Shown here: piece by piece, positions 1,282-62,704 of the stretch | How the letters are laid out: each line of letters starts with the position of its first letter | Numbering within the stretch: the stretch's first letter is position 1 | Origin: Prevotella sp. | Lineage (GTDB): Bacteria; Bacteroidota; Bacteroidia; Bacteroidales; Bacteroidaceae | Assembly: GCA_017615355.1 (NCBI GenBank) | Contig: JAGAAJ010000130.1 | Coordinates: 16,857 to 80,856, forward strand | Direction: 5' to 3' | DNA: 64,000 bases | Program-made: the position numbers and the translations under genes | Notes under the pieces: generated by a model | What the model was told of the DNA's origin: nothing | The model's input: the letters and a program-made list of their open reading frames with translations, nothing else | The model's database searches: none

Positions 1282-2462
1282 GACTTCAGATAGGTAACGA
1301 TTCGCTCACAGGCATGGCCGTCGCCGTAGGGGTTGACGGCCTTGCTCATTTTCTCATATTCAGCGGCATTGTCCAGCAGGAGGCTCATCTCATTCACGAT
1401 CTTGTCATAGTCGGTGCCCACCAGCTTGACGGTGCCTGCCTCCAGCGCCTCGGGGCGTTCGGTGGTGTCGCGCATCACCAGCACAGGCTTGCCCAGGCCA
1501 GGTGCTTCCTCCTGTATGCCGCCGCTGTCGGTCAGGACGACGGATGCCTTCTCCATCAGACAGACAAACTCCAGATACTGCAGCGGCTCGATGAAGAAGA
1601 AGTTGTGGGCCTCGCCCCATCCCTCGCCCAGGTCAAGGGCGTCGATGCCCTTGAATACCTGATGAATGGGCTGGCGCACGTTGGGATTGAGGTGCATGGG
1701 ATAGACAAAGTCCACGTCGGGATACTTCACGGAGAGGTCTTTCATGGCGGTCAGCATACGGATGAAACCGTCGCCGAAGTTCTCGCGGCGATGGCCCGTA
1801 ATCAAAACTAGCTTACGGCTTACGGGCTTACCGCTTAAACGACTTGCGTCATAGCCTGCGTCCTTGAGCACGTTGACTTGCTCAGCGGCAAGGGCGGGGT
1901 CGCTCTTGAGTTTTTCCACCACCATGTGCAGGGCGTCGATGACCGTATTGCCCGTGACGATGATCGTCCCATGGGCATTCTCGGCCTTCAGGTTCTGTTC
2001 GGAGAGTGGGGTGGGAGCAAAGTCGAAGGATGCGATGCGTCCCGTGATCTGGCGGTTCATCTCCTCCGGCCAAGGGCTGTAGATGTTGTGGGTGCGCAGG
2101 CCGGCTTCCACATGGCCTACGGGTATCTGCTGGTAGAAAGCCGCCAGGGCAGCGGCGGTGGAGGTCGTCGTGTCGCCATGTACCAGCACGACGTCGGGCT
2201 TACATTCCTTCAGCACATCACGCATTCCCGTCAGCACCCGGGCCGTGACGTCGTACAGGTCCTGTCCCTGCTTCATGATATTCAGGTCGTAGTCGGGGGT
2301 GACATCGAATATCCTGAGCACCTGGTCGAGCATCTCGCGGTGCTGGCCTGTCACGCAGACGATGGTCTTGAAAGACGCTGACTCTTCCTGAAAGCGTTTC
2401 ACCAGCGGGCACATCTTGATAGCCTCTGGGCGAGTGCCGAAAACCAACATGATTGTCTTCAT
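1275..2462 (-). CDS. wecB: UDP-N-acetylglucosamine 2-epimerase (non-hydrolysing)
   Basis: Converts UDP-GlcNAc to UDP-ManNAc for the surface polysaccharide. I start it at the ATG giving MKTIMLVFGTRPEAIKM, 5 bases after the upstream stop; a longer open frame exists but the GTRPE motif is normally at the N-terminus. Family signatures are GTRPEAIK (residues 9-16), HGDTTT (95-100), PEEMNR (132-137) and TGHRRENFG (222-230), then DSGGIQEEAP near the C-terminus. Length (395 residues) is normal. Just before the TGHRREN motif sits a short extra linker (residues about 209-217) encoded by a tandem heptanucleotide array, which I read as an insertion tolerated in a surface loop. It overlaps the following glycosyltransferase start by 7 bases. 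Confidence 0.95.
   Translation of the reverse strand: MKTIMLVFGTRPEAIKMCPLVKRFQEESASFKTIVCVTGQHREMLDQVLRIFDVTPDYDLNIMKQGQDLYDVTARVLTGMRDVLKECKPDVVLVHGDTTTSTAAALAAFYQQIPVGHVEAGLRTHNIYSPWPEEMNRQITGRIASFDFAPTPLSEQNLKAENAHGTIIVTGNTVIDALHMVVEKLKSDPALAAEQVNVLKDAGYDASRLSGKPVSRKLVLITGHRRENFGDGFIRMLTAMKDLSVKYPDVDFVYPMHLNPNVRQPIHQVFKGIDALDLGEGWGEAHNFFFIEPLQYLEFVCLMEKASVVLTDSGGIQEEAPGLGKPVLVMRDTTERPEALEAGTVKLVGTDYDKIVNEMSLLLDNAAEYEKMSKAVNPYGDGHACERIVTYLKSC
1811..1838. repeat. Heptanucleotide array inside wecB
   Basis: Four copies of a GCTTACG-like unit: GCTTA begins at 1811, 1818, 1826 and 1833, so spacing is 7, 8, 7. The array lies in frame in wecB and encodes the linker LSGKPVSRK ahead of the conserved TGHRREN motif. 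It belongs to the class of 28-bp arrays found throughout this window. Confidence 0.7.
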
Positions 2463-2466
2463 CTCA

Positions 2467-3558
2467 TTAGCATTTAGTGACTTCTTCAATGGCTTCATGC
2501 AGAGCGTTGATATATCCATGCCCATATTGCAGGTCGGGCTCCATGTAGTTGCCCTCGCCCCATTCGTTCCACGACTTGAGGATGACGATCTGCTCCTCAG
2601 CGGGCTTGTCCTTCACCATGTCGAATGCCATAGCGACAAGCTGCTTGAAGTATTTGGGGTGGGCGTCGGTCATGACCAGTCCCCTTGCCCCGGAGCGCGG
2701 CGTGTGGTCCCAGTTGGGGACGATGACGGGGAAGACGTTGCGTTGCCGGCAGTCGTCGTTGATCATGTACTTGATGGCTTTCTTGTATTTGTAAATCTTC
2801 GGAATGCGCAGATACTTCCCGGCAATGGTCTGGAATGCTTTCCTGATATTGCTTGCCTGGTGGTAGATGTTCAGCTGGTCGACATTATGGATGGCGTCGA
2901 ACCCCATGCCGAGGATCTCATCCCGATGCTCGCTGTTGAAGTCGGTCGCCACGAAATAGAAGTCGTCCAGGCCGTTTTCCTTTGCCAGCCTGCGCCATGT
3001 CTTGATGAATGTGGACACATCCTGGAAATGCAGGGCATCATAGACGATATAGAACGGCTTGCCGTTGACACGGATGTAGCGATGGTCCCTGAACGCCGGC
3101 AGCAGATGCATGAAATGGGCTTCATAGTCGGCTTCGCCGGGATAAAGCTGCTCGATGAGGAGCTTGTCCTTGCCCGGATTCTTGGGATCCCAAAGTTTCT
3201 TGTACCAAGAGTGGTTGGCCCATGCCAGGCAGAAAGGGAAGTCGGGCTTTCCCGAGGCAACCACCTCCTCGAAGGGGCGCTGCATCAACTGGCGGCCGTT
3301 GCCGAACCAATACTCATAGTAGCAGAACCCCTCGATGCCAGCCTCTCGGGCCAGCCGGGCCTGCTCCTCGCGAATCTCAGGCAGCCGCAGGTCGTAGAAG
3401 CCCAGGTCGGCAGGGACATGTGGCTGCACATGGCCAGGGAACAGCTTGCTGGCCCTTACCACATTGGTCCATTCGGTAAATCCTTTTCCCCACCATTCGT
3501 CGTTCTCGGGGAATGGATGGTATTGCGGCAGATAATATGCGATGACTCTTGGTTTCAT
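2467..3558 (-). CDS. WbsX-like (GH99-type) polysaccharide enzyme
   Basis: A 363-residue protein starting MKPRVIAYYLPQYHPFPEND and continuing GFTEWTNVVRA, the signature of the WbsX/GHL99 family often found in O-antigen and capsule loci. Near the C-terminus it has ILKSWNEWGEGNYMEPD, the conserved end of the family barrel. Members are annotated as glycosyltransferases or as glycoside-hydrolase-like enzymes, and the true reaction in most loci is not established. No signal peptide is visible, so it should act in the cytosol. It ends 5 bases before wecB and begins 24 bases after the DUF4886 lipoprotein gene, inside the polysaccharide operon. Confidence 0.85.
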   Translation of the reverse strand: MKPRVIAYYLPQYHPFPENDEWWGKGFTEWTNVVRASKLFPGHVQPHVPADLGFYDLRLPEIREEQARLAREAGIEGFCYYEYWFGNGRQLMQRPFEEVVASGKPDFPFCLAWANHSWYKKLWDPKNPGKDKLLIEQLYPGEADYEAHFMHLLPAFRDHRYIRVNGKPFYIVYDALHFQDVSTFIKTWRRLAKENGLDDFYFVATDFNSEHRDEILGMGFDAIHNVDQLNIYHQASNIRKAFQTIAGKYLRIPKIYKYKKAIKYMINDDCRQRNVFPVIVPNWDHTPRSGARGLVMTDAHPKYFKQLVAMAFDMVKDKPAEEQIVILKSWNEWGEGNYMEPDLQYGHGYINALHEAIEEVTKC

Positions 3559-3582
3559 TCTTTCTTTTGCTTAACAAACTTT

Positions 3583-4572: not shown

Positions 4573-4584
4573 GCTGGTCTCGTT

Positions 4585-15186: not shown

Positions 15187-15256
15187 GTTGAGAGTTTAGT
15201 GTTTAGAGTTGAGAGACATTTGTCTGTAGGTTATTGGTTAACGTTTATTGGCTATT
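15187..15256. repeat. Two adjacent heptanucleotide arrays
   Basis: 15187-15214 holds GTTGAGA, GTTTAGT, GTTTAGA, GTTGAGA; 15229-15256 holds GGTTATT, GGTTAAC, GTTTATT, GGCTATT. Each is four units of 7 bp. The second overlaps the 3' end of the glycosyltransferase gene and supplies its last codons and stop. The first, extended to 15220, matches the array in recQ at 29 of 34 bases. Confidence 0.75.
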
Positions 15257-16122
15257 GTCAGGAAATAGCCCAGCTTGTAGAGCTTGAAGATGCGCAGGGA
15301 GGGATGCTTGCTGCAGAGGATGCGACGCTCCAGCCAACCGAAGAGCCAGTGCCATAGGCAGATGAGCCAGCGCACAGGGGCGATGTGGATGCCTTCGACG
15401 GCGGTGAGCATCTGGGAATAGCCGCGCAGCTGCTGGCGCTTGTCGTGCAATGTTCGCAATCCCTCCTCGGTCTTGCTGACGAAGTGGGGGTTGTCCTCGA
15501 AAGTGAAGAAACCGGCTGGGTTGGCGATATGTGTGATGTTGATGCCGGCCTGCTTCAGCTGCTTGCCGAAGAGCACGTCCTCATAGCCGTAGGTGCGGAA
15601 TTGTTCGTCGAAGGGGTGTTCCACCATGATGCTGCGTCGCACCAGGAAGTTGGCGGTATGAAAGTGCTGATAGGGCCTCAGACGGCGCTGTTCAGCGGTG
15701 TGCATGTGCTCGTTGGCCTTCTCGTAGCGATAGCGCAGGTTGTTCTTTGGTGCCTCGCCCACTTTGTATCCTCCATAGACCACATCGCCGCCGGCCAGCA
15801 GATAGTTGATGATGAAACCTGGGTCGAAGATGGTCATATCGCAGTCGAGATACAGCAGCCACTCCTTTCGTGCCATCGAACACAGCAGATTACGTATGCG
15901 CGCACGCCCGATGTTCTCCTCCAGCGCCATAAAGCGACAATTCGGCCATTGGCTGATCTCCCAGCATTGCTCTACTAAGGCCTTGTCTGTAGAGCCATCG
16001 TCGATGACAATCAGTTCGAAGTCCAGATCCTTGATGGTTTGGGCCTGACGGCACAGTTCCTTGACCGTCGGCCTGGGGTCGGCGTTGTACATCGGGATGA
16101 GTATCGACAGCTCTTTTCTCAT
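15238..16122 (-). CDS. Glycosyltransferase family 2
   Basis: 295 residues from MRKELSILIPMYNADPRPTV; a longer open frame runs upstream through repeats and is rejected. GT-A features are the first strand LSILIPMYN, ELIVIDDGSTDK with the DDGS motif near residue 48, and the DxD-type motif LYLDCDMTIFD near residue 105. A GYEDVLFGKQL block follows near residue 185, a pattern of polypeptide- and chondroitin-type family 2 enzymes. The C-terminal LICLWHWLFGWLER looks amphipathic and may anchor it to the membrane. The last codons (LTIANKR) and stop are made of a tandem heptanucleotide array. The -7 box ends 9 bases before the ATG, suggesting a near-leaderless transcript. Confidence 0.88.
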   Translation of the reverse strand: MRKELSILIPMYNADPRPTVKELCRQAQTIKDLDFELIVIDDGSTDKALVEQCWEISQWPNCRFMALEENIGRARIRNLLCSMARKEWLLYLDCDMTIFDPGFIINYLLAGGDVVYGGYKVGEAPKNNLRYRYEKANEHMHTAEQRRLRPYQHFHTANFLVRRSIMVEHPFDEQFRTYGYEDVLFGKQLKQAGINITHIANPAGFFTFEDNPHFVSKTEEGLRTLHDKRQQLRGYSQMLTAVEGIHIAPVRWLICLWHWLFGWLERRILCSKHPSLRIFKLYKLGYFLTIANKR

Positions 16123-16144: not shown

Positions 16145-16248
16145 AGTTGAGAGATGAGGGTGGGGAGTTGAGAGTTTTTTGCGCTTTGTTTCATAAAAAA
16201 AGTTAATGCCGAAGAGATAACTCCTCGCTCATAACTCTTAACTCCCAA
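16145..16248. repeat. Inverted pair of heptanucleotide arrays
   Basis: Left array 16145-16172: AGTTGAG, AGATGAG, GGTGGGG, AGTTGAG. Right array 16221-16248: CTCCTCG, CTCATAA, CTCTTAA, CTCCCAA. The right array resembles the reverse complement of the left, with 48 bases between them. The pair lies between the divergent promoters of the glycosyltransferase gene and rpsP. Confidence 0.65.
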
Positions 16249-17539: not shown

Positions 17540-19492
17540 CTATCCTCTTTTCTTTAGCGACAGCAGACCGTCGTCGTCGATGACGATCTCCTCATAGATC
17601 ATCGTTTCCAGCGCCGTCTCGATGGGCTCGTAGGGCATTTTAATCTGATGCAATTCTGACACGTGGTGCTGCTTTCCGTCGGCCAGCAGCTCCTCTATCA
17701 GCGTCTGTGCCTTGTCTACGTCCTCCGCCTTGCTGAGGGTGTGATGCCGTTCAAGGCACACGTCGCATTGTCCGCAGTCCTTTGTGTCGTCCTGACCGAA
17801 GTAGTGCAGGAGCATCCGGCTGCGGCATCGGTTTTCGCTGGTGGCATATTCAATCATTTTCTCGATGCGTTCGCGATAGCGCTCCTTCAAGTTGTCGTAG
17901 ACGGATGGCGGCAGCTGCAGATGTTCCGATTCCTCGCGCCGTTGGGTGTAGCGGATGAGCGGCGTGCTGCGCTGTGGGATGAAGTCGACGATGCCCCTGC
18001 GGTCCAGTTCTTTTAAAATAAGGTACACCTGCGGGCGCGTGAGGCCTGTCTGCTGAGCCAGAAACGCCTCGTCGATGTATACGTAGTCGTTGAACAGTCC
18101 GCTGTAGTTGCGCAGCAGCGTCACGATGAGCCCGTCGGTCTCTGCCCCGTTGTCGCGTAGCCGGTAGAGGTCGTCGCGTTCCAGTCGGAAACGCAGGCGT
18201 GCCTGGCCCTCCTCTTCCTCCTGATAGTTGATGTAGCCTGCCCGCTGCAGAATCTTCAATGCCGAGAGCACACGGGTGGGGAAGTGGTGGAAGTTGTGGC
18301 AGAACTTGTCGATGGGAAACTCGAAGACGTGATTGAAGCCTGAGCCCACGCCTATCTGGTAGAAGTAGGCCAGATGGTCGTACACCTCCCTGATCTCGTC
18401 CTTCTCAGGGAAGGTGTCGCCGATGCGTTTCAGCAGTTTTCCGCGGTCGCTGTCGTTGAAGAGCAGCACGGCGTAGGCCTTCTGTCCGTCGCGTCCTGCG
18501 CGGCCTGCCTCCTGGAAGTAGGCCTCGATGCTGTCAGGACAGTCGGCGTGCAGCACCACGCGCACGTCGGGCTTGTCGATGCCCATACCGAAGGCGTTGG
18601 TAGCCACCATGATACGTATCTTGCCTGCCTGCCATTCCTTCTGCCGCTGATCCTTGATGTTGCTGTCCAGGCCAGCGTGGAAGAAGGTGGCACTCATGCC
18701 CGCCTCGTTCAGCATCGTGGCAATCTCCTTGGTTCGGCGACGGCTGCGTGTGTAGATGATAGCTGTGCCAGGCACGTTCTGCAGGATGTGGTGCATCTGC
18801 TCCTCCTTGTCGCTCACATAGCGCACGATATAGGCCAGGTTCTTCCGCTCAAAGCTCATGCGGAAAACGTTGAACGTTGAGTGACTTTTGTTGGCTTTGG
18901 TAATGTCTCTTAACTCTAAACTCTTAACACTTAACTTATCAATGATGTCGTTGATAACCAGCGGTGTAGCGGTAGCGGTGAGGGCGAGGATAGGTGCTTG
19001 CGGCACGATGCTGCGAATCTTTCCGATAGCCAGGTACGACGGACGGAAATCGTAGCCCCACTGGCTGATGCAGTGCGCCTCGTCCACGCAGATGAAGCTC
19101 ACCTGCATGTGCTCGAGCTTCTTCAGGAAGAGCTCCGACGACAGTCGCTCGGGCGAGACGTAGAGCAGCTTCACGGCACCGAAGACTGCGTTCTCCAGGA
19201 TGCGCAGCACATCGTCGTGGGCCATATCAGAATGGATGGCGGCAGCCCTGATGCCCCTATGGCGCAGGTTCTGCACCTGGTCCTTCATCAGCGCGATGAG
19301 GGGCGTGATGACGATACACGTGCCCTCCTGAGCCAGCGCCGGCACCTGGAAGGTGATGCTCTTGCCGCCGCCCGTCGGCATCAGTCCCAGCGTGTCGCAG
19401 CCGCTGCCGATCGACTCGATGATCTCGCGCTGAATGCCGCGGAAATCATCGTAGCCCCAGTATTTCTTCAGTATGCTCTGGTAGTTGTCCAC
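17540..19492 (-). CDS. recQ: ATP-dependent DNA helicase RecQ
   Basis: A 650-residue 3'-5' helicase for replication-fork and recombination repair. Motifs are in order: the RecQ N-terminal FRGIQREIIE, Walker A PTGGGKS (39-45), DEAH (137-140) in VDEAHCISQWG, LTATAT (171-176), MGIDKPDVR and QEAGRAGRDG. A zinc-binding RQC region follows (C-x17-C-x2-C-x2-C type around CGQCDVC), then a winged-helix end; no clear HRDC domain is seen. Residues about 188-207, between the first helicase domain and FRMSFERKNLAYIV, are an extra low-complexity linker encoded by heptanucleotide arrays. The frame stays open. A TAAATTTG box lies 37-44 bases upstream of the ATG on the minus strand. Confidence 0.97.
   Translation of the reverse strand: MDNYQSILKKYWGYDDFRGIQREIIESIGSGCDTLGLMPTGGGKSITFQVPALAQEGTCIVITPLIALMKDQVQNLRHRGIRAAAIHSDMAHDDVLRILENAVFGAVKLLYVSPERLSSELFLKKLEHMQVSFICVDEAHCISQWGYDFRPSYLAIGKIRSIVPQAPILALTATATPLVINDIIDKLSVKSLELRDITKANKSHSTFNVFRMSFERKNLAYIVRYVSDKEEQMHHILQNVPGTAIIYTRSRRRTKEIATMLNEAGMSATFFHAGLDSNIKDQRQKEWQAGKIRIMVATNAFGMGIDKPDVRVVLHADCPDSIEAYFQEAGRAGRDGQKAYAVLLFNDSDRGKLLKRIGDTFPEKDEIREVYDHLAYFYQIGVGSGFNHVFEFPIDKFCHNFHHFPTRVLSALKILQRAGYINYQEEEEGQARLRFRLERDDLYRLRDNGAETDGLIVTLLRNYSGLFNDYVYIDEAFLAQQTGLTRPQVYLILKELDRRGIVDFIPQRSTPLIRYTQRREESEHLQLPPSVYDNLKERYRERIEKMIEYATSENRCRSRMLLHYFGQDDTKDCGQCDVCLERHHTLSKAEDVDKAQTLIEELLADGKQHHVSELHQIKMPYEPIETALETMIYEEIVIDDDGLLSLKKRG
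18867..18935. repeat. Heptanucleotide arrays inside recQ
   Basis: 18867-18880 is AACGTTG twice; 18907-18934 is CTCTTAA, CTCTAAA, CTCTTAA, CACTTAA. Together they encode an in-frame extra linker between the two RecA-like halves of RecQ. 18902-18935 matches, in reverse complement, the intergenic array at 15187-15220 at 29 of 34 bases. Confidence 0.75.
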
Positions 19493-26152: not shown

Positions 26153-27751
26153 TCAATAATAACCTAGGCTGTCTACATAAGCGCTGTCGTTATAGGAGCC
26201 GTAGGGTTCTTCTTCATAGTCTTCTTCTTCGGCTTCGGCTTCTTCCACAGGTTCAGCTTCGGCCTTTTTGAAATAGCTTGAAGCATATTCTTCGTAGACG
26301 GATCTTTCGGCGCCTCTGAATAGAACAATCGCATTGTTGGTGTTGTCATCTCGTCCCACATAAGTATAGAGCATCTTTGCCTTCCCGTCCTTGTCGTCTG
26401 CAATATAGAAACGTTCATCTTTCTGACTGTCTACGTCATCTGCGTATATCATCCTTGAGGGTATTTTTTCGAGAATGTCCAGCACTTCATCGCGTGTGGT
26501 GCTGCCTTCACAGAGAAGCACTCTTGCCTCGCCCATTTGTTCGTCGGAATTATCCGTGTAGTCATCGTGATAGCCTTCCTGGCTGTCAAAGAGTACTGCG
26601 ATGTCTGCTACGGCTTTATCCAGATATTCCACATCCTTCTTGCTGTTGAGCAAGATAAGGGCAATGACGATGACGGGGATGAGGCAGATGAGCACCCATA
26701 GCCAGGTTCGACGCTTCTTCTTTTCAGGGGAAGCCATCTTAGTAGAGCTCGACTCAGACTCTTCGGCCAGTTTTGTGGCAACGGTCTCGTTCCCGTTCCC
26801 GTTTTGGTTTTCGTTTTCGTTCCCTTTTTGGTTTTCGTTTTCGTAGCGAAGCGTTTCGTTTTCGTTTTGGTTTTGGTTTTCGTTTTTCATCGCATCCATC
26901 ATCTCCTCCATCGACTGGTAGCGCTGCTTGCGGCTGCTCTGCATGGCTCGGCTGATCACCTGCCAGGCACAGTCGCTGATGTGGGTGGGGCGTTGCAGGG
27001 GCTCGTCGGCCAGGTCGGTGGCTTCTGTCGGAGCCTTGCCCGTGAGCAGGAAATATAGGGTGGCGCCAAGGCTATAGATGTCAGTAGTGGGCGAGAAAGC
27101 CTGCACGCCGCCCTCGCGGTACTGTTCCAACGGTGCGAAGCCCTTGCTGTAGCCTACGGGCGTGGTGGTGGTCTGATGGCCTTTCTGGTCGTAGTGTTTC
27201 GACACGCCGAAGTCTATCAGCACGACGTCATCGTGTCCCTGCTCGTCCTTTCTCAGCAGGATGTTGGCGGGCTTCACGTCGAGGTGCATCGTCTGCCGCT
27301 GGTGCAGGCTGCTGAGGGCCTGCGCCGTCTGCATCGTCAGCTCAAAGGCTCTGGCCTCAGGCAGCGGTCCGCCAGTCTTCACCAGCGCGTCGAGCGATCC
27401 TCCCTCGACGAACTCCATCACGTAGTAGGCCGTCTCGTTCTCCTCAAAGATGTCGTAGATACGCACGATGTGAGGTGCGCGGTCGAGCGAGGCAATCATG
27501 CGTGCCTCCTTGATAAACTTCTCGCGGTAGAGGCTCACCGTCTCGCGCTGGCTCTCCGTACCCACCGTCACGTGGTGTGTGTCTCCGTCACGTTCGCAGT
27601 AGTCCTTCATGAAGAACTCCTTGATGGCCACGCGGCGCTCCAGGCCCTCCTGTATTCCCTCGTAGGTAATGCCGAAGCCACCCTGTCCCAGCGTGCGCTT
27701 CACCCTGTATTTGCCGCCTTGCAGCAGGCTGTCTTTTTGTAATGTTTGCAT
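26153..27751 (-). CDS. Membrane-anchored Ser/Thr protein kinase
   Basis: 532 residues. The N-terminal Hanks-type kinase domain has the glycine loop LGQGGFG (21-27), Lys44 in VAIKEF, catalytic loop HLDVKPAN (156-163, so Asp158 with Leu in place of the usual Arg, i.e. non-RD type) and DFG (180-182). After the kinase domain comes a linker rich in N, E and Q built from hexanucleotide repeats, then one transmembrane helix (WLWVLICLIPVIVIALILLN, near 345-365) and a periplasmic domain of unknown fold with an acidic, Glu-rich C-terminus. The kinase would face the cytosol and the C-terminal domain could sense the periplasm. It has its own promoter. Confidence 0.9.
   Translation of the reverse strand: MQTLQKDSLLQGGKYRVKRTLGQGGFGITYEGIQEGLERRVAIKEFFMKDYCERDGDTHHVTVGTESQRETVSLYREKFIKEARMIASLDRAPHIVRIYDIFEENETAYYVMEFVEGGSLDALVKTGGPLPEARAFELTMQTAQALSSLHQRQTMHLDVKPANILLRKDEQGHDDVVLIDFGVSKHYDQKGHQTTTTPVGYSKGFAPLEQYREGGVQAFSPTTDIYSLGATLYFLLTGKAPTEATDLADEPLQRPTHISDCAWQVISRAMQSSRKQRYQSMEEMMDAMKNENQNQNENETLRYENENQKGNENENQNGNGNETVATKLAEESESSSTKMASPEKKKRRTWLWVLICLIPVIVIALILLNSKKDVEYLDKAVADIAVLFDSQEGYHDDYTDNSDEQMGEARVLLCEGSTTRDEVLDILEKIPSRMIYADDVDSQKDERFYIADDKDGKAKMLYTYVGRDDNTNNAIVLFRGAERSVYEEYASSYFKKAEAEPVEEAEAEEEDYEEEPYGSYNDSAYVDSLGYY
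26786..26886. repeat. Hexanucleotide repeat (TTTTCG/TTTTGG) in the kinase linker
   Basis: About 100 bases of TTTTCG and TTTTGG hexamers, coding on the minus strand for alternating Asn with Glu or Gln. Within it the block coding LRYENENQK is closely repeated at 62585-62620, and a shorter version occurs in the 726-residue secreted protein near 24665. Confidence 0.75.
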
Positions 27752-44743: not shown

Positions 44744-44770
44744 CAACCTGATAGGCAAAATGTGAAGGAA

Positions 44771-45718
44771 ATGAGAAAGATAGTCATTGTGCTGATGATG
44801 CTGGCCGGTCTGGCGGTCGCAGGAAAGGGCAGGGCGCAGGAGCGATTCGTCTTCATGCCGCAATGGACGGCACAGGCGCAGTTTGCGGGCTACTACGTGG
44901 CTCTTGAGAAGGGCTTCTACAAGGCTGAGGGCCTCGACGTGGACATCGTGCATCCGTCGCCTACGCAGTCGACGCTCAGTCGAGTGCAGAACGACGAGGT
45001 GGACGCTACGACGCTGCAGCTCTGTCAGGCCATGAAAGTAGTCGACGGCGGCGTTCCGCTGGTGAACATCCTGCAGACGTCGATGAACAGCGCGCTGACC
45101 ATCGTCTCGCGACGGGGCATGGACCCGTTGAAGCAGAAAGGGGCACGCGTGGCTATCTGGAGCAGCGACTTTGCCGATATGGCTTTGTGCATGAGTGCTC
45201 AGGAGCACTTGGACTATGAGTGGGTGAAGTATGCCTCGACCATGAACCTGTTTATCAAGGGTGCTGTCGACGCTGCCGTTGCCATGAGCTACAACGAGTT
45301 CTACCAGCTGGCGCAGACGGGCCTGCCGGTGACGGAAGCCTGCGTCTATCGCTTCTGCGACAGCGACTATAACGTGCCTGATGACGGCATCTATATGCGT
45401 CGCGAGCTGTACGAGCAGAAGAAGGAGCAAGCCCTGAAGTTTGCCAAAGCCAGCCGCAAGGGTTGGGAATGGGCGGCTGCCCATCCTGACGAGACGCTGG
45501 AGATCGTGATGAAATATGTACGCGAAAACCATATCGCCACCAACAGCACGCTGCAGAAGCTGATGCTGGCCGAGGTGCTGAGGTTGCAGATTGACCGCGA
45601 GACGGGCAAACGCGAGTTCCGGCTGAATCCCAACATGGTGCTGCTGGCCTCGAACCTGATGATGAGAAACCATCTGCTCACGCATGATGTAAGTTACGAA
45701 CAACTCATTGACCATTGA
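44771..45718 (+). CDS. NMT1/THI5-like substrate-binding protein
   Basis: 315 residues with signal peptide MRKIVIVLMMLAGLAVAGKG. The mature start FVFMPQWTAQAQFAGYYVAL followed by EKGFYKAEGLDVDIV is the NMT1/THI5-like pattern found in binding proteins for pyrimidines, sulfonates and similar solutes. The usual permease and ATPase genes are missing. Instead the next gene, 12 bases on, encodes a membrane phosphatase with an extracytoplasmic sensor domain, so this protein may present a ligand to that sensor. The last residues (LIDH) and stop are made of a tandem heptanucleotide repeat. Confidence 0.85.
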   Translation: MRKIVIVLMMLAGLAVAGKGRAQERFVFMPQWTAQAQFAGYYVALEKGFYKAEGLDVDIVHPSPTQSTLSRVQNDEVDATTLQLCQAMKVVDGGVPLVNILQTSMNSALTIVSRRGMDPLKQKGARVAIWSSDFADMALCMSAQEHLDYEWVKYASTMNLFIKGAVDAAVAMSYNEFYQLAQTGLPVTEACVYRFCDSDYNVPDDGIYMRRELYEQKKEQALKFAKASRKGWEWAAAHPDETLEIVMKYVRENHIATNSTLQKLMLAEVLRLQIDRETGKREFRLNPNMVLLASNLMMRNHLLTHDVSYEQLIDH

Positions 45719-45730
45719 CCATTGACCATT
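45707..45730. repeat. Heptanucleotide array at a gene junction
   Basis: ATTGACC three times plus ATT. It supplies the last codons and stop (TGA at 45716-45718) of the binding-protein gene and fills the gap to the next ATG at 45731. Confidence 0.75.
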
Positions 45731-51193: not shown

Positions 51194-52765
51194 ATGCCAG
51201 AATCCTATACGACCATCAAACCCAGGTTCATTGAAATCATGGACTCCACGCTGCGCGACGGTGAGCAGACCAGCGGCGTGAGTTTCCTGCCCCATGAGAA
51301 GCTGATGATTGCCCGCATGCTGCTGCGCGACCTCAACGTAGACCGCATCGAGGTGGCATCGGCACGTGTCAGCGACGGCGAGAAGGAGGCCGTGAAGATG
51401 ATCTGTCGCTATGCCCGCCAGATAGACCGCCTGCAGAGTGTGGAGGTGCTGGGCTTCGTCGACGGACACGCCTCTGTCGATTGGATAGTTGATGCCGGCG
51501 CCTGCACGATGAACCTGCTGTGCAAGGGCTCTCTGCGCCATTGTCAGGAGCAGCTTCACAAGACGCCCGAGGAGCATATCGCCGATATCCTCAGCGTGGT
51601 GGATTACGCTCATTCCAAGGGTGTAGGCGTCAATATCTACCTGGAGGACTGGAGCAGCGGTATGAAGGACTCGCCAGAATATGTCTATCAGTTGATGGAT
51701 AGCCTGACTTCACACCTCTCACCTCTCACTTCTCACCCCTCTATTACACGTTTCATGCTACCCGATACGCTGGGCATTATGAATCCGCTACAGGTGGTGG
51801 AGTATATGCGTAAGATGCTGAAGCGTTATCCGGAGGTGCATTTCGACTACCACGCTCACAACGACTACGACCTCGCTGTGAGTAATTCTTTGGCTGCTGC
51901 ATTGAGTGGTGCCAAGGGACTACATGTCACCGTGAACGGCCTGGGCGAACGTTGTGGCAATGCGCCGCTGTCGAGTGTGCAGGTCATCCTGAAGGATCAG
52001 TTCAACGCGAAGACCAGTATCAACGAGGAGAAACTGATGGATGTGAGCCGCCTCGTCGAGAGCTACAGCGGCATCGCTATCGCCCCCAACCAGCCTATCA
52101 TCGGCGACAATGTCTTCACACAGGTGGCTGGCGTTCATGCCGACGGCGATCAGAAGGGCGGTCTCTATCACAATCCCCTTGTGCCAGAGCGTTTCGGTAG
52201 AAAACGTGAGTATGCGATGGGCAAGACCAGCGGCAGGGCCAACATCGCACGCAACCTGCAGGAGCTGGGCTTGGAGCTGACGCCAGAGCAGACGCAGCGT
52301 GTGACGAAGCGTATCACCGAGCTGGGCGACAGAAAGGAAGTGGTGACGCAGGACGATCTGCCCTTCATCGTGAGCGATGTCCTGAAGCACGACGTCACCG
52401 AGGACAAGGTGAAGCTCGTCAGCTATCAGGTGTCGCTGGCCTACGGTCTGAAGCCGCTGGCCAACGTGAAGGTGGAAATCAATGGTCAGCAGTACGAGGG
52501 TCACTCATCTGGCGACGGTCAGTACGACGCCTTCGTGAAAGCCCTGCGCAAGATTTACAAGGAGTACCTCGACCGCACCTTCCCTTTGCTGCAGAATTAT
52601 GCCGTCACCATCCCGCCTGGTGGTCGTACCGATGCTCTGGTGCAGACCGTCATCACTTGGCAGATGCCCGAGGGCAAGGTGCTGCGCACGCGTGGTCTCG
52701 ATGCCGACCAGACCGAAGCCGCCATCAAGGCTACCATTAAAATGCTTAACATTGTAGAGAAATAA
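51194..52765 (+). CDS. cimA: Citramalate synthase-like (alpha-IPM synthase family) enzyme
   Basis: 523 residues of the LeuA/CimA family: [20 protein letters not shown] replaces the leuA version, with [20 protein letters not shown] as metal site, [15 protein letters not shown], and a C-terminal regulatory domain ([16 protein letters not shown]). With leuA already in the operon, this paralogue probably makes citramalate from pyruvate and acetyl-CoA, giving a threonine-independent route to isoleucine through LeuCD and LeuB; a second isopropylmalate synthase is the alternative. Residues 171-183 ([13 protein letters not shown]) come from a heptanucleotide array in a loop before FMLPDTLGI. Confidence 0.85.
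51713..51740. repeat. Heptanucleotide array inside the cimA-like gene
   Basis: CACCTCT, CACCTCT, CACTTCT, CACCCCT: four units of 7 bp. It encodes most of an extra Ser/His/Leu/Pro-rich loop in frame. Confidence 0.75.
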
Positions 52766-52769
52766 TACT

Positions 52770-53837: not shown

Positions 53838-56800
53838 TCAATTAAGGTTGCTGGGTTTCATAATGGTTTGTAAAACGCGCACGGCCTCTTCCACCGTGGG
53901 CACATCGGCGATGACCATCGAGCGACGCAAACCGCGCTGACCGGAGGGTGCCGGCATCTCGCGAAGATTGCAGCGGCGCACCTCGTGTGTGGCATAGTCG
54001 ATGATGCAGTCGAAGGTCTCGCTTTGGTAATACGGACTCTCGGGATTCTGCACGAAGTAGAGGAACATCCGCCCCTGCTTCAGCATGATTTTCTCGCATC
54101 CCAGCAGCTTGCCCAATCGTCTCAACGGCACCACGTGCAACAGCTCCTGTGCCACGGGCGGCATCTTGCCGAAGCGGTCGGTCATCCTCGTCTTGTAGGC
54201 CTCCAGCTCCTTGTCGTCCTTGATGTTGTCCAACTCGCGGTAGAGCAGGATGCGCTCCGAATCGCTGGGCACGTAGCTGTCGGGGAAATACATCTCGAGG
54301 TCGGATTCGAGAACGCAGTCGCTTACAAATGAAGAATGAAGAGTGAAGAATGAAGAATTTGCTGCCGCCGTGCCATGCGTTGAAGAATTTGCTGCCGCCG
54401 CACCTTTACCAGTTGGGATGGCGGTGGCACATTCTTCATTCTTCATTCTTAATTCTTCATCCCCTTCATTCCTCAGCTCAGTCATCGCCTCGTTGAGGAT
54501 TTTCTGATAGGTCTCATAGCCGAGGTCGGAGATAAAGCCGCTCTGTTCAGCACCGAGCAGATTGCCGGCACCGCGGATGTCGAGGTCCTGCATGGCGATG
54601 TTGATGCCTGAGCCCAGGTCGCTGAAGTTCTCCAAGGCCTCCAAGCGGCGACGGCTGTCGGCTGGAAGGGCTGAGAGTGGCGGCGCCAGCAGATAGCAGA
54701 ATGACTTGCGGTTGCCTCGGCCTACACGACCGCGCATCTGGTGCAGGTCTGAGAGGCCGAAGTTGTGGGCGCTGTTGATGATGATGGTGTTCGCGTTGGG
54801 TATGTCGATGCCGTTCTCGACGATGGTCGTAGATAGCAGCACGTCGTAGTCGTAGTTGGAGAAGTCGAGCACAATCTGCTCCAGCTCGTCGGGCTTCATC
54901 TGTCCGTGACCGACGGCGACGCGGCAGTCGGGGATGTATTTCAGAATCAAGTCCTTCAGCTCCCTGAGGTTGTTGATGCGGTTGTTGACGAAGAAGACCT
55001 GTCCGTTGCGGCTCATCTCGAAGTTGATGGCCTCGACGATGATGTCGGCCGAGAAGGTGTGAATCTCCGTCTGTATGGGGTAGCGGTTGGGCGGCGGCGT
55101 CTGTATGACGCTCATGTCGCGGGCTCCTACCAGCGAGAACTGCAGGGTGCGTGGGATGGGCGTAGCACTCATCGTCAGCGTGTCGACGTTGGTCTTCATC
55201 TGGCGCAGCTTCTCCTTCGTAGAGACGCCGAATTTCTGCTCCTCGTCGATGATGAGCAAACCCAAGTCCTTGAACTTCACGTTTTTGCCGATGAGTTTGT
55301 GGGTGCCGATGAGGATGTCAATCTTTCCCTCCTCCAGGTCTTTCAGCAGGGCGGTGGTCTGCTTGGCGGTACGGGCTCGGGTGAGATAGTCCACCCTGAC
55401 GGGCATATCCTTCAAGCGGTTGCTGAATGTGTGATAGTGCTGATAGGCCAGCACGGTGGTAGGCACGAGCACGGCCACCTGCTTGCCGTCGGTGGCAGCC
55501 TTGAAGGCAGCACGCACAGCCACCTCGGTCTTGCCGAAGCCCACGTCGCCGCAGACAAGTCGGTCCATCGGCGTGTTCTTCTCCATATCGGCCTTCACGT
55601 CCTGCGTAGCCTTCAGCTGGTCGGGCGTGTCCTCGTAGAGGAATGAAGCCTCGAGCTCGTGCTGCAAATAGCTGTCGTGACTGAAGGCGAAGCCGCGCTG
55701 ATGACGGCGCGTAGCGTAGAGCTTGATCAGGTCGCGGGCGATGTCCTTGATGTGCTTCTTCGTGCGTTCCTTCAGGCGCTCCCATTGGCCTGTGCCCAGC
55801 GTCGACATGCGTGGAGGCTGTCCGCCGTCTTGGCTCTTGTATTTCGATACCTTGTATAGGGAATGGATGGATACATAGATGGCATCGCCTCGTTGGTAGA
55901 TGATTTTGATCATCTCCTGGAAGGCCTCTCCTCCATTCGCATTAGTGATGGGCATTCTCACCAATCCGCCGAACTTACCCACGCCGTGATCGATGTGCAC
56001 CACGTAGTCGCCCATCTCAAACTGCTGAATCTCCTTCAGCGTCAGCGCCACCTTGCCGCTGCGGGCCTTGTCGCTCTTCAGGTTGTATTTGTGGAAACGG
56101 TCGAAGATCTGGTGGTCGGTGAAGAGACAGAGCCTGAGGTCGTGGTCGATGAAACCCTCGTGCAGCGTCTTGTCGATGCCCTCGAAGCTGAGGCTGCTCT
56201 TCTCTGCGAGGATGTCCTTCAATCGCTCTATCTGCTTGGGACTGTCGGCCAGCATAAAGAGCTTGTAGCCTTTCAGCAGGTAGTCCTCCAAAGATTGCGT
56301 CAGCAGGTCGAAATTCTTGTGGAACAACGGCTGCGGCGAGATGTGGAACCTGATGATGGCAGGAGCGGCGCTCCCGCTTGAGACAAATTCTATGTGCCTG
56401 AAGGACTGCGCCAAGGTGTCAAACTGCGTGCCTGTGGTGAGCAGGGTCTCGCGTTGCATCTCCTGCTCTATCTGCTTGGCTTCCATCTCCGTAGCACCCT
56501 CCAAGCGCTCCTTCATGGCCTGCGTAGAGAAGCCCTCCTGATAGGTGCGCTCGATGGTCTCGCGGGTGTAGTTGTAGTTGCGGAACACGAGGATGGCATC
56601 GTTGGGCAGGAAGGTGAGCAGCGAGGCTTTCTGCTGCGTCACACTCATCTCGGGCACGATGGTGGCCTGCTGGCAACGCTCCTTCGACAGCTGATCCTCC
56701 ACCTCGAAGGTGCGGATAGAGTCGATGTCGTCGCCGAAGAAGTCGATGCGGAAAGGATATTCGTGGCTGAAGCTGAACACGTCGAGGATGCTGCCGCGCA

Positions 56801-57332
56801 GGGCAAACTGTCCGGGCTCGTAGACGTAGTCCACCTCGCGGAAACCCAGCTCGCGCAACTCCTTCAGCACCTTCTCCACGTCTGCCGTCTGCCCCTCGGT
56901 CAGCGTCAGCGACTTCTCGTCAAACTGTTGGCGAGCCACCACCATCTCGGCCAAGGCCTCAGGGAAAGATACAATGTAGAGACCAGAGGTGGGGTGGGAG
57001 AGACGGGAGAGCACCTCCGTGCGCAGGATCTCGTTGGCAGGGTCTTTCTGACCGTATTTCACGGCGCGCTTGTAGCTGGAGGGGAAGAACAGCACGTGGC
57101 TGTCGCCCATCTGCTGTGTCAGGTCGTGGTAGAAATAGCCTGCCTCCTCGGCGTCCTGCAGGATGAAAAGGAAGACTTTCTGGAGCTTCAAGGCTGCGAA
57201 GACCACCGACGACGAAGAGGCCGACAACCCTTCAAGGGCCATCCGCCGCATCTTCTCATTCCCTAAGGTCTTCGTCAGCGCCTTCACTTGCGCTGATTTC
57301 CCGTAAAGGGCTTGCAGCTCCTGAAAATTCAT
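53838..57332 (-). CDS. mfd: Transcription-repair coupling factor Mfd
   Basis: 1164 residues; removes stalled RNA polymerase and recruits UvrA. Domains in order are a UvrB-like N-terminal module, the RNA-polymerase-interacting CarD-like domain (EMGDYVVHIDHGVGKFGGLV), Walker A GDVGFGKTEVAVRAAF, the DEEQ box IIDEEQKFGV, MSATPIPRTL, MRGRVGRG and the C-terminal TRCF domain (SERILLYRELDNIKDDKELE). Residues about 958-1002, between the motor and TRCF domains, are an extra Ala/Asn/Ser-rich linker encoded by an inverted pair of heptanucleotide arrays with an internal direct repeat. A full promoter lies just upstream, with a very short leader. Confidence 0.97.
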   Translation of the reverse strand: MNFQELQALYGKSAQVKALTKTLGNEKMRRMALEGLSASSSSVVFAALKLQKVFLFILQDAEEAGYFYHDLTQQMGDSHVLFFPSSYKRAVKYGQKDPANEILRTEVLSRLSHPTSGLYIVSFPEALAEMVVARQQFDEKSLTLTEGQTADVEKVLKELRELGFREVDYVYEPGQFALRGSILDVFSFSHEYPFRIDFFGDDIDSIRTFEVEDQLSKERCQQATIVPEMSVTQQKASLLTFLPNDAILVFRNYNYTRETIERTYQEGFSTQAMKERLEGATEMEAKQIEQEMQRETLLTTGTQFDTLAQSFRHIEFVSSGSAAPAIIRFHISPQPLFHKNFDLLTQSLEDYLLKGYKLFMLADSPKQIERLKDILAEKSSLSFEGIDKTLHEGFIDHDLRLCLFTDHQIFDRFHKYNLKSDKARSGKVALTLKEIQQFEMGDYVVHIDHGVGKFGGLVRMPITNANGGEAFQEMIKIIYQRGDAIYVSIHSLYKVSKYKSQDGGQPPRMSTLGTGQWERLKERTKKHIKDIARDLIKLYATRRHQRGFAFSHDSYLQHELEASFLYEDTPDQLKATQDVKADMEKNTPMDRLVCGDVGFGKTEVAVRAAFKAATDGKQVAVLVPTTVLAYQHYHTFSNRLKDMPVRVDYLTRARTAKQTTALLKDLEEGKIDILIGTHKLIGKNVKFKDLGLLIIDEEQKFGVSTKEKLRQMKTNVDTLTMSATPIPRTLQFSLVGARDMSVIQTPPPNRYPIQTEIHTFSADIIVEAINFEMSRNGQVFFVNNRINNLRELKDLILKYIPDCRVAVGHGQMKPDELEQIVLDFSNYDYDVLLSTTIVENGIDIPNANTIIINSAHNFGLSDLHQMRGRVGRGNRKSFCYLLAPPLSALPADSRRRLEALENFSDLGSGINIAMQDLDIRGAGNLLGAEQSGFISDLGYETYQKILNEAMTELRNEGDEELRMKNEECATAIPTGKGAAAANSSTHGTAAANSSFFTLHSSFVSDCVLESDLEMYFPDSYVPSDSERILLYRELDNIKDDKELEAYKTRMTDRFGKMPPVAQELLHVVPLRRLGKLLGCEKIMLKQGRMFLYFVQNPESPYYQSETFDCIIDYATHEVRRCNLREMPAPSGQRGLRRSMVIADVPTVEEAVRVLQTIMKPSNLN
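54329..54459. repeat. Inverted pair of heptanucleotide arrays inside mfd
   Basis: Left array 54329-54356: ATGAAGA, ATGAAGA, GTGAAGA, ATGAAGA. Right array 54432-54459: TTCTTCA, TTCTTCA, TTCTTAA, TTCTTCA, the reverse complement of the left. Between them GAAGAATTTGCTGCCGCCG occurs twice (54352-54370 and 54382-54400). The whole element is open in the mfd frame and looks like a small mobile element with terminal inverted arrays. Confidence 0.8.
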
Positions 57333-58213: not shown

Positions 58214-58241
58214 GAATGGTGTGTTGATATTTGCGCAGAAA

Positions 58242-58345
58242 CTCCCCTCCCTTCAAGGGGAGGGGCCAGGGGTGGGGTCTGTAACTGTTTTCTATTTGGT
58301 GATTACTGACCCCACCCCCAACCCCTCCCCTACAAGGGAGGGGAG
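58242..58345. repeat. Paired inverted GC-rich repeats (MITE/BIME-like)
   Basis: Copy 1 (58242-58279) and copy 2 (58308-58345) are ~38-bp inverted copies with 28 bases between them. Each contains its own hairpin (CCCCTCCC...GGGAGGGG). The unit resembles the palindrome in leuC. In the pfp-lysozyme gap it could fold into a large structure and reduce read-through. Confidence 0.82.
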
Positions 58346-58374
58346 CGGCTGCGCGTAGTTATGACGCGGGTCTC

Positions 58375-60012: not shown

Positions 60013-60062
60013 TGTTCTGATTCTAAAATTATAAATAAAGTGTTCGGTTTTCTAACGGGGTG

Positions 60063-60070
60063 CAAAGTTA
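60063..60070 (-). promoter_or_regulatory. -7 box of pfp
   Basis: Minus-strand TAACTTTG; the leader to the ATG at 60012 would be about 45 nt. The -33 site is not clear. Confidence 0.5.
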
Positions 60071-60141
60071 CTGCTTTTCATTGATATTCTATCATTTATG
60101 AAGCAGAAATTTTTCGCGGCGGATGCGTTTTTTGCTTTACC

Positions 60142-60603: not shown

Positions 60604-60621
60604 CGTCTCTTGGTTTATATG

Positions 60622-62352
60622 TCAGTTCAGCCTGAACGTTACGGGGATGTTATACTTGACGCGTACAGGCCTTCCATCCTGAGTACCGGGAGTCCAGCGG
60701 GGCATTGATCTAAGAACGCGAACTGCCTCCTTGTCAAGCGAGGGGTCAACACTTCGAACCACGGTGACATTACTGATGGAGCCGTCAGTCTCAACGACGA
60801 AGGTACATACCACTTTGCCTTGAATGCCGTTTTCTTCAGCTACTGCAGGATATTGGATATTGTTGGCGAGAAATTGCATCAGCGCAGTTAGGCCTCCTGG
60901 GAATGCGGGCTGATTTTCCACCACGTCATAGACTCTGTTGTCTGACTCTTGCCTGCTGGGGCTTTGTTGGGCAGCCCTGTCGGCTTCTTGCCGCTGTCTT
61001 TCCTGGGCAGCTCTGTCGGCTTCTTGCCGTTGTCTTTCTTGTGCAGCTCTTTCGGCATCTTGCCGCTGCCTTTCCTGGGTAGCTCTGTCAGCTTCTTGCC
61101 GTTGTCTTTCCCGTTCGGCCTGTTGCTGGGCCTCGCGCTCTGCCTGTCTGATACGTTCTTCCTCCAAGGCTTGCTGGCGCTCCTGCTCCAAGGCTGCAAT
61201 CATCTCGAGGGAGTCTCTTTCTGCATTGTCCTCGTCTGCGTCCTCCATATCGGCATCTGCCAGCTCTTCTTCATCGTCGTCATCGTCATAGCGATGTTTG
61301 TCCGAGCCTTTGCCAAGCAGCAGTATCAAGGCCGCTATAATGGCTGCGGCCAGCACGCCACCCACTATGTACCACACCTTGCGCCGGCGTCCGGCAGTCT
61401 CTTCGTATTCATCGTCATCGTCATTCAGCTGTTGCGGATTCGACACTACCGTCGGCGAATCATCCGGATGGAATGTGGCGGCCATGAATTTGCGCACCTC
61501 TGCCACCGTCTGAGGGCGCTCGTTGCGGTTGGGCTCCATGAGCCAGGTGATCAGGTGCCGTGTGCCTTCGCTGGTCGACGGGGGGAAATGGAATGCGCCG
61601 CCGTCTTGTATGGCCGATACCGAGGGAGGCGTCTCGCCTGTCATCAGGTTGTACAAGGTGGCTCCCAGCGCATACAGGTCGGTCCAGGCACCCATGCGTT
61701 TGGTCTCGCCTGATATTTGTTCCGTGGGGGCATAGCCTGGTGTGTAGCACAATCCGGTAGAGGTGGATAGCGAATAGCCCTCGGCATCGTGAAACTGCTT
61801 ACTGGCGCCGAAGTCGATAAGCACCAGCCTGCCGTCGTCGACAGCAATGATGTTGCCCGGCTTCAGGTCGAGGTGCCAGATGTTCTTGCTGTGCACCACC
61901 TCCAAGGCATTGAGTATCTGGTCGGCGAAACCTATCACCTCGTCCTCGCTGAAAGGATGTCCCTGCTGCTTCAGGCGTTCGGAAAGCGATGCCCCGTTCA
62001 GGTAGTCCATGAGATAGTAGGCCGTTCCGTTTTCCTCAAACAGGCTAAACACATGCACCACGTGGGGATTGTCGAGCTGCTGCAGGCGAGTGGCTTCCTT
62101 GCGGAACTTCGATTTCTGCGCCTCAAACTCATCACGGTTGTCGGCATTGCTGACGCTCACCTGCTGGCTGTCGGTATCGCGTTCGTTGACGCCACGCAGG
62201 AAGAATTCCTTCAGCGCGTAATTCACTTCACTGGCAGTATCGACCACACGGTAGGTGTTGCCAAAGCCGCCCGATCCCAAATGCTGTACCACCCGGTATC
62301 TGCCATCTTGAAGCAGATAGCCGATGGGGAGGATGTTCGTTCGTTTTTCCAT
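60622..62352 (-). CDS. Ser/Thr kinase fused to a TonB C-terminal domain
   Basis: 576 residues from MEKRTNILPIGYLLQDGRYR. The kinase domain has GSGGFGN (26-32), Lys48, HLDLKPGN (160-167, Asp162, non-RD) and DFG (180-182). Then come an acidic and Gln-rich linker, a single transmembrane helix (VGGVLAAAIIAALILLLG, near 325-342), a 12-residue repeat region rich in Arg/Gln/Glu (QERQRQEADRAA about four times) forming a likely long helix, and a C-terminal TonB domain (PAFPGGLTALMQFLANNIQY, then PRWTPGTQDGRPVRVKYNIP and VTFRLN). The kinase would be cytosolic and the TonB end periplasmic, which suggests coupling of phosphorylation to outer-membrane receptors. Confidence 0.92.
   Translation of the reverse strand: MEKRTNILPIGYLLQDGRYRVVQHLGSGGFGNTYRVVDTASEVNYALKEFFLRGVNERDTDSQQVSVSNADNRDEFEAQKSKFRKEATRLQQLDNPHVVHVFSLFEENGTAYYLMDYLNGASLSERLKQQGHPFSEDEVIGFADQILNALEVVHSKNIWHLDLKPGNIIAVDDGRLVLIDFGASKQFHDAEGYSLSTSTGLCYTPGYAPTEQISGETKRMGAWTDLYALGATLYNLMTGETPPSVSAIQDGGAFHFPPSTSEGTRHLITWLMEPNRNERPQTVAEVRKFMAATFHPDDSPTVVSNPQQLNDDDDEYEETAGRRRKVWYIVGGVLAAAIIAALILLLGKGSDKHRYDDDDDEEELADADMEDADEDNAERDSLEMIAALEQERQQALEEERIRQAEREAQQQAERERQRQEADRATQERQRQDAERAAQERQRQEADRAAQERQRQEADRAAQQSPSRQESDNRVYDVVENQPAFPGGLTALMQFLANNIQYPAVAEENGIQGKVVCTFVVETDGSISNVTVVRSVDPSLDKEAVRVLRSMPRWTPGTQDGRPVRVKYNIPVTFRLN
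60963..61106. repeat. 36-bp coding tandem repeat in the kinase-TonB gene
   Basis: About four units of 36 bp encode QERQRQEADRAA-like repeats (with D/E and T/A changes). The units give the periplasmic helix that would span from the membrane towards the outer membrane. Copy number may vary between strains. Confidence 0.75.
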
Positions 62353-62385
62353 CGTCTCTTGGTATTTGTTTCTACTATTCCGCTG

Positions 62386-62393
62386 CAAATTTA
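62386..62393 (-). promoter_or_regulatory. -7 box of the kinase-TonB gene
   Basis: Minus-strand TAAATTTG, about 34 bases before the ATG at 62352; -33 site not clear. Confidence 0.45.
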
Positions 62394-62440
62394 GTCATTT
62401 TTTCTGATTTCTCTCTCCGTTTCAACATTATTTTTCTCTG

Positions 62441-62704
62441 ATGCAGAAAAATGGGAATACCGTCACTCCCGTTCGGGAACACCGTTATTCTGCTGAGGAG
62501 GCTCTTTATTCTGCTGAAGAAGCTGTTTATTCTGCTGAAGAAGCTGTTTATTCTGCTGAGGAGCCTCCTTATGAAATTTTAGAGCTTCGCTACGAAAACC
62601 AAAGCGAAAACCAAAAAGCCTCCCCTCATCGGGAAGGCTCTTTCATGTTCAGCCGGCGTTTAACGTTCTTTCCTCTCTCCTCTTTCCTCTTTCCTCTAGA
62701 TTAG
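62441..62704 (+). CDS. Repeat-rich 87-codon ORF of doubtful reality
   Basis: The frame starts MQKNGNTVTPVREHRYSAEE and holds four copies of a seven-residue unit YSAEEAV/L, then LELRYENQSENQK, a block that also occurs in the linker of the kinase at 26.8 kb in the same frame. There is no recognisable domain, signal or promoter, and the 3' end runs through a heptanucleotide array. It may be a spacer built of repeats rather than a gene, but the shared reading frame of LRYEN with the kinase argues that some translated version once existed. Confidence 0.3.
   Translation: MQKNGNTVTPVREHRYSAEEALYSAEEAVYSAEEAVYSAEEPPYEILELRYENQSENQKASPHREGSFMFSRRLTFFPLSSFLFPLD
62485..62568. repeat. 21-bp minisatellite, four copies
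   Basis: TTATTCTGCTGAAGAAGCTG-type units begin at 62485, 62506, 62527 and 62548; units 2 and 3 are identical and the outer two differ at a few positions. Confidence 0.88.
62667..62694. repeat. Heptanucleotide array near 62.7 kb
   Basis: TCTTTCC, TCTCTCC, TCTTTCC, TCTTTCC: four units of 7 bp ending just before the stop of the pseudogene on the minus strand. Confidence 0.75.

Follow-up and report, generated by a model that had tools for sequence, protein, structure and literature searches.

The stretch of DNA analysed here (the window) comprises 64,000 nucleotides from a Prevotella sp. contig (JAGAAJ010000130.1, positions 16,857 to 80,856 of the forward strand; assembly GCA_017615355.1) and carries short tandem arrays of seven-nucleotide units, both between genes and in frame inside them. 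The explanation we favour, and hold to be probable, is that the arrays derive from small non-autonomous palindromic elements which behave in the manner of Rickettsia palindromic elements, are copied whole with their heptads and are filtered by selection, with slippage in seven-nucleotide steps acting in addition. A first-pass annotation of the window had listed dispersed heptanucleotide arrays, and those at 15187, 15229, 18867/18907, 45706, 51713, 54328, 54430 and 62667 are all present. It missed that some of them are the arms of hairpins and that these hairpins are copied whole.

The source assembly, that of a rumen Prevotella (G000; 3.25 Mb in 147 contigs, ~90% complete), was sampled as 80 genome stretches plus the window, together 1,239,795 bp or 38% of the assembly, and compared with a 1,078,042-bp sample of the genome of a sister species (G040). 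Arrays were called from self-match scores at shifts of 2 to 30, with an order-3 Markov copy of the sequence as the control. The G000 sample contains 111 arrays of period 7, against 15 of period 6 and 17 of period 8; the harmonics of 7, periods 14 and 21, are represented by 61 and 50 arrays, each remaining period by at most 17, and the Markov copy returned none at periods 6, 7, 8, 14 and 21. One of the 111 may be double-counted, because contigs L059 and L065 have a common array at their ends. The special standing of a unit of seven, as opposed to six or eight, is thus borne out. In the G040 sample, which contains 39 arrays of period 7, 2 of period 6 and 18 of period 8, period 7 outnumbers period 8 by a narrower margin. 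Loci around mfd, which encodes a DNA-repair protein, gave the same picture across the Prevotella group: 52 other members (443,614 bp) have 75 period-7 and 51 period-14 arrays and no more than 16 at any other period from 4 to 15, with at least one period-7 array in 27 of the 52 loci, while 27 loci from other bacteria (200,690 bp) have 3 period-7 arrays.

The G000 arrays can be sorted into seven or more heptamer families, with some oddments left over, and in several families two of the seven unit positions are the most variable. Copy number runs from 3 to ~13 overall. The suggestion that arrays have mostly four copies therefore describes the AATGAAG and GTTGAGA families, where 10/16 and 16/26 round to four, and does not hold in general. 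The predominance of period 7 over 6 and 8 is that of the long simple heptanucleotide repeats (LSSR/STRR), as is slippage-like change in copy number at a fixed site (GGTTATT with ~4 copies in one species and 16 in the other; also L032 5749), the hairpin families excepted.

The hairpin elements share one layout, over roughly 70-130 bp: about four heptads lead into a short apical stem that is specific to the family, and a loop and the complementary arm come next. Family A reads (AATGAAG)4-AATTTGCTGCCGCC-loop and then back, and family B (GTTGAGN)4-GTGACTTTTGTC-loop and then back; GGTGAGA, GGTTGAT, GGTTATT, ATAGTGA and other heptads also serve as hairpin arms in G000 or G040. The window has a family-A hairpin at 54328..54460, in frame in mfd (53838-57332, minus strand), with AATGAAG arms at 54328-54358 and 54430-54460, the apical stem TTTGCTGCCGCC and a fold z of -7.68. 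A family-B hairpin lies in frame in recQ (17540-19492, minus strand) at 18866..18936, with GTTGAGA-type arms and the apical pair GTGACTTTTGTT / AATGTC; it scores 61 bits against a family-B model of which it is itself an input. The arrays listed separately at 54329 and 54432, and at 18867 and 18907, are therefore paired arms, and those at 16145 and 16221 probably are too; 45707, 51713 and 62667 are solitary. Inverted partners accompany 21/111 arrays, compared with 0/218 shuffled flanks at the same score. The apical cores are flanked by heptads, and in one hybrid (L084 10405-10511) the left arm and core of family A are joined to a right arm of family-B heptads, so that this core bears the arms of two families. 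Palindromic elements of ~70-150 bp in many dispersed copies are also what defines the Rickettsia type, and, as in miniature inverted-repeat transposable elements (MITEs), the inverted repeats are terminal, with arms extending to both element ends.

Several observations indicate that the heptads travel with the hairpin. Nine family-B copies align end to end, and in three family-A copies one right-arm heptad, the same in each, carries a TTAA variant. On L032, two family-B copies separated by 3.8 kb are identical at 85/86 positions; the matched stretch, first GTTGAG to last CTAAACA, stops at heptad boundaries, and outside it the right flanks agree at 4/25 positions. Neither site has a hairpin in G040, the first measuring 12 bp there versus ~93. 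From this copied pair, without hairpins in the sister, and the shared TTAA variant, it follows that the heptads belong to the copied unit in these families, and copy number in them is then a property of that unit. Array ends, tested against simulated random ends, are phase-locked in two families: GGTGAGA (n=42; p<0.0001 for the last base and p=0.00015 for the first) and AATGAAG (n=16, half of them hairpin arms; p=0.00025 and 0.0005).

Orthologous sites turn over between the sister species. Flanks of 23/126 G000 arrays were found in the G040 sample, giving 19 loci once arms were merged, which we classed by our own reading of the alignments. At 6/19 the array or hairpin is absent from G040 (L019 16511, L029 15674, L032 3183, L032 5176, L032 7006 and L066 6100). 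Another repeat takes its place at 8/19 (L019 7179, L038 4217/4289, L038 7146, L058 751, L068 9017 and window 18907, 51713 and 54328), although L038 4217/4289 could alternatively be a diverged shared array. A related repeat is common to both species at 5/19 (L025 17317, L032 5749, L058 1581, L068 14488 and L079 4276). In the other direction, 18/59 G040 arrays have flanks in the G000 sample, and a family-B-like hairpin at G040C5 96448 is absent from G000. Applied to the G000 sample, the family-B model finds 10 loci that score above 60 bits (8 being its own inputs), and in the 1.08 Mb G040 sample none above 48.6 bits; in the whole G000 assembly it finds at least 19 above 60 bits, again with 8 inputs among them. 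At E 0.001 it matches 87/150 genomes of the genus, G000 included. In an order-wide draw, 18/119 match, one of them G000 and the other 17 at 48 bits or less.

The genes in the window show the same replacement. In place of the mfd hairpin, G040 and another relative, G041, have a different, non-heptad palindrome, also in frame. The recQ site in G040 has a different heptad hairpin (AATTACG), and at the array the window RecQ exceeds E. coli RecQ by ~15 residues. A solitary CACCTCT array (GGTGAGA family, antisense) at 51713..51741, plus strand, lies in frame in a cimA-like gene (51194-52765) whose protein is 8 residues longer than Leptospira CimA at the array, and G040 and G041 have other palindromes there. 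Of the genes in which five in-frame arrays had been proposed, mfd, recQ and the cimA-like gene are thus supported by in-frame length differences, and wecB is too weak to count: its array at 1811 (85% matches and 9% indels in Tandem Repeats Finder, TRF) falls below the array thresholds. The window WecB is ~10 residues longer at this site than two solved relatives, and a degenerate insert is possible there; none of the genome sequences compared aligned to it. The expectation that orthologues would mostly lack the same linkers holds at the sister loci and among the relatives of Mfd.

We collected 76 distinct linkers between conserved Mfd anchors from 91 loci (L089-L149, L169-L198), counting them as distinct sequences and not as proven independent events. 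The standard pattern is seen in 33 and the other 43 depart from it. Against codon shuffles, period 7 is significant (p≤0.005) in 17/43 non-standard linkers, the window's included, and in 0/33 standard ones. In the non-standard set no other period between 4 and 14 is significant in more than 5/43, except for the harmonic 14 (15/43), and in the standard set periods 4 and 12 are significant in 2/33 and 1/33. The heptamers vary (ACTCTCA in L148, CTCTTAC in L116, CATTCCA in L098, ACCCTCC in L130, and others). A separate base-shuffle test gave a hairpin or period-7 signal in 29/76 linkers, one of which (L191) is of standard type. The nearest to the window's Mfd among the matches listed are from rumen Prevotella metagenome assemblies, at 91% identity (L089, RUG12386) and 86% (L090, Tb.RUG.323). 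The linker is a natural replicate experiment: in many relatives, different small repeats occupy, in frame, one and the same gap in a DNA-repair protein, so that the way in which protein segments born from repeats are tolerated and used can be tested.

Our own simple hexamer gene caller places 69 of the 111 arrays within coding sequence, 20 across a gene end and 22 between genes. Since 91% of bases are coding, genes contain fewer arrays than their share of the sequence, although arrays are common in them. The length difference from the sister species is a multiple of 3 in 11/12 coding rows, two of which are the arms of the mfd hairpin; the exception, L079 4276, is 62 nt from the called start. 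In-frame insertions in unrelated genes that are absent in relatives, the other mark of the Rickettsia type, occur at L066, in mfd, recQ and the cimA-like gene, and elsewhere. Within genes, 22/27 GGTGAGA-family arrays are antisense; the TGA of the forward unit falls in every frame because the unit length is 7. Three GGTTATT-type arrays (L072 9660, L072 15530 and L044 15472) begin 41 nt past the called gene start and, translated by eye, appear to encode the hydrophobic core of a signal peptide.

The account that we favour builds on observations: the near-identical pair, the alignments within families, the orthologous sites at which the element is missing or replaced, and conservation of frame. 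There would be several families of non-autonomous palindromic elements, each arm consisting of about four imperfect heptads and a short family-specific apical stem, and an element would be copied entire to new sites together with its heptads, presumably by means of a trans-acting enzyme. Solitary arrays may be half-elements, discrete heptad units, or arrays growing and shrinking by seven-nucleotide slippage. The heptads probably arise first by slippage, which would also be the origin of the seven-nucleotide unit, before being captured in arms. Gene-disrupting insertions would be lost. Survivors would be those in the gap from a stop codon to a start codon, or those in protein linkers that tolerate them, where they keep the frame and mostly lie in the orientation without stops, so that different elements would come to fill the same tolerated site in different species. 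A stronger version, which is possible but which we regard as doubtful, is that a sequence-blind, length-strict process in Prevotella makes and spreads hairpins with arms of about four seven-nucleotide units whose letters are free. Its machinery would recognise architecture, and each lineage would mint new heptamer families that reseed the same tolerant linkers, such as that of Mfd.

A number of results weigh against whole-unit copying. No inverted partner was found for 90/111 arrays, and some orthologous arrays differ in length alone, as slippage predicts. The left flanks of the L032 pair agree at 12/25 positions, above the 6 expected, and loss in G040 is possible at the second site, because the 22-bp stretch found there is itself heptad-like. 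Array ends show no phase lock in GTTGAGA (n=24) and GGTTGAT (n=12), and only a weak one, for the last base alone, in GGAAAGA (n=16, p=0.03). Covariation in nine copies adds no support for pairing, with a double change at 1/19 consensus pairs and an unfavourable covariation term. No clear target-site duplication was seen in the aligned empty sites, whose flanks have diverged. Two candidate sources of copying enzyme were rejected in the ~90% complete assembly: a REP/RAYT origin, since the Y1 transposase (PF01797) gave 0 matches with positive controls in 5 genomes, and a reverse-transcriptase origin, since no RVT_1 was found.

Pure replication slippage would have the polymerase prefer seven-nucleotide slips, with direct repeats growing anywhere and inverted partners arising from template switching. 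It fits the arrays of up to ~13 copies with mixed units, the orthologous arrays of unequal length such as GGTTATT, the many different heptamers across the genus, the solitary state of most arrays, and the idea of others, reported in the excerpted text of PMC4679880 and PMC4692102, that the seven-nucleotide unit reflects polymerase contact length. It leaves unexplained the family-specific apical sequences outside the heptads, the near-identical 86-bp copied pair and the phase-locked ends in two families; we consider it unlikely as the whole explanation, and the first-pass annotation was right that slippage alone does not suffice for all arrays. Ordinary MITEs, that is deletion derivatives of a host DDE transposon whose terminal inverted repeats are heptad-rich by chance, seem less likely still. 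Inverted repeats, small size, many copies and lineage-specific amplification are all MITE-like, but target duplication is not clear, and the same architecture with unrelated sequences is unexpected of one MITE family. Nor did arm pairs lead to a convincing parent transposon, or long arm pair, for family A or B in the 38% sample (1.24 Mb; DDE transposases were not searched), where at least two of four longer inward B pairs (777-3838 bp, not examined further) join arms of different elements.

That the arrays are functional sites, kept by selection to bind a DNA- or RNA-binding regulator, we judge very improbable. Two variable positions in the unit of several families, the adjacency of some arrays to promoters or start codons, and the translational control that MacGregor proposes for TAACTGA repeats (PMC4679880, as excerpted) speak for such a role, whereas 69/111 arrays lie within coding sequence and sites turn over between sister species. 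An artefact of metagenome-bin assembly is hardly credible: G000 is indeed fragmented into 147 contigs at ~90% completeness, with two contigs (L059 and L065) sharing an end array, but frame is kept in 11/12 coding rows, the pattern recurs in 27/52 Prevotella-group loci, and the one- and two-contig genomes G064 and G080 also match the family-B model.

Distant bacteria are known to have heptanucleotide repeats, for which no mechanism has been agreed. In the present case, many heptamers, presence and absence between sisters, and a near-identical copied pair occur within one genus, and slippage and mobility therefore become separable. The STRR sequences of cyanobacteria are heptanucleotide repeats; small dispersed repeats (SDR) in the heptamer arrays of Nostoc were reportedly described by Elhai in 2008, and heptad hairpins of the tRNA-Leu intron are said to have been described by Costa. 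Going by description, the Prevotella elements may share with this group the heptamer arrays, embedded hairpins and heptads on both arms; the difference is that those are cyanobacterial. REP/BIME elements, which RAYT Y1 transposases mobilise, are short multicopy hairpins. The Prevotella elements are likewise short hairpins in many copies, but are larger, have heptad arms, and occur in an assembly (G000) in which Y1 transposase was not found.

Our literature search, with most subscription journals outside it, returned no report of heptamer arrays or heptad-armed hairpins in Prevotella, and none of heptad-armed hairpins that use many heptamers within a single genus, are copied whole and occupy one and the same protein linker across many relatives. 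From the excerpted sources it is already known that heptanucleotide repeats are dispersed in the genomes of Xanthomonas, Nostoc, Beggiatoaceae and some Bacteroidetes, commonly with four units and at times inverted (PMC4692102, PMC4679880), and that in-frame palindromic elements occur in Rickettsia (PMC10969869). The Rickettsia palindromic elements are described there as small (~100-150 bp), of several families, in frame in unrelated genes and different between species (PMC10969869). The Prevotella hairpins match this description, being small, palindromic, of several families, in frame in unrelated genes and variable between species; unlike them, as far as that excerpt goes, the Prevotella arms are built of direct heptads and many insertions are intergenic, and no conserved peptide encoded by them was noticed, although none was looked for. 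The parallels that had been drawn with STRR repeats and with Rickettsia elements are thus the right ones. The Xanthomonas and Nostoc repeats, as excerpted, have mostly four units, degenerate positions and occasional inversion, and vary between related genomes (PMC4692102). Prevotella shares the period of 7, the last three of these features and, in the AATGAAG and GTTGAGA families, the usual four units. In contrast to their one G-rich unit type, however, a single Prevotella genome has at least seven heptamer families, and it also has hairpins that bear apical stems and many arrays in frame. The TAACTGA repeats of Beggiatoaceae, cyanobacteria and five Bacteroidetes lie near start and stop codons, and inside genes only in the stop-free orientation (PMC4679880, excerpted text). 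The Prevotella arrays, too, are direct repeats of heptads found close to start and stop codons, and within genes most avoid the orientation that has stops; TAACTGA is, in contrast, one heptamer, rarely inverted, with no copied hairpin described in that excerpt (PMC4679880).

The remaining sites in the window lie between or at the ends of genes. In the spacer 15187..15257, between two minus-strand genes, a family-B arm ending in ACATTTGTC (15187-15223) adjoins a GGTTATT array (15229-15257), seen by eye and without a period-7 TRF row; the spacer is a weak match to the family-B model (20 bits, E 0.24) and corresponds in G040 to a GGTTATT array of ~16 copies. A degenerate hairpin with family-B-like arms lies between two divergent genes at 16145..16246. 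Its first array is degenerate (TRF 68% matches) and that at 16221 has no TRF row; 16142-16246 matches the family-B model weakly (29 bits, E 0.0015), and the G040 site measures 47 bp versus ~102. This hairpin and the arrays at L068 9017, L021 13791-13875, L073 16075 and L085 298 directly adjoin a GTACCTTTGCA-like sequence, which we take to resemble the Bacteroidota promoter box, and arrays so placed may alter promoter spacing. A solitary CATTGAC array of 3.6 copies (45706..45730, plus strand) adjoins the next gene and holds the TGA stop (45716-45718) of gene 44762-45718; the GGTTATT array contains the stop codon of gene 15238-16122, and these are the two arrays said to supply stop codons. A solitary TCTTTCC array (GGAAAGA family; 62667..62697, minus strand) lies just past the stop codon of gene 62701-63288 (minus strand); the sequences compared include no orthologue of this site. 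A search of the window against Rfam returned one tRNA only.

Repeats of other kinds were also seen. An 8-bp family around CGTTAT/ATAACG is dispersed in G000 (L018 19260, L045 6211, L047 1439, L060 6276, L068 1017 and others), as is a 6-bp family around CGTTTT, found in the window at 26788-26886. Very long heptad arrays of AAGGTCA type, up to ~319 bp, occur near mfd in another Prevotellaceae assembly (L136 3146-7646). Tandem repeats of longer unit lie in the window at 32185-32787, 60962-61111 and 62485-62559 (units of 105, 36/72 and 21 bp), mostly in long open reading frames. Another dispersed inverted-pair element of ~120 bp (ACTCCCCTCCC...GGGAGGGGAG), at 58237-58355 in the window, has many matches in relatives, above all in G041.

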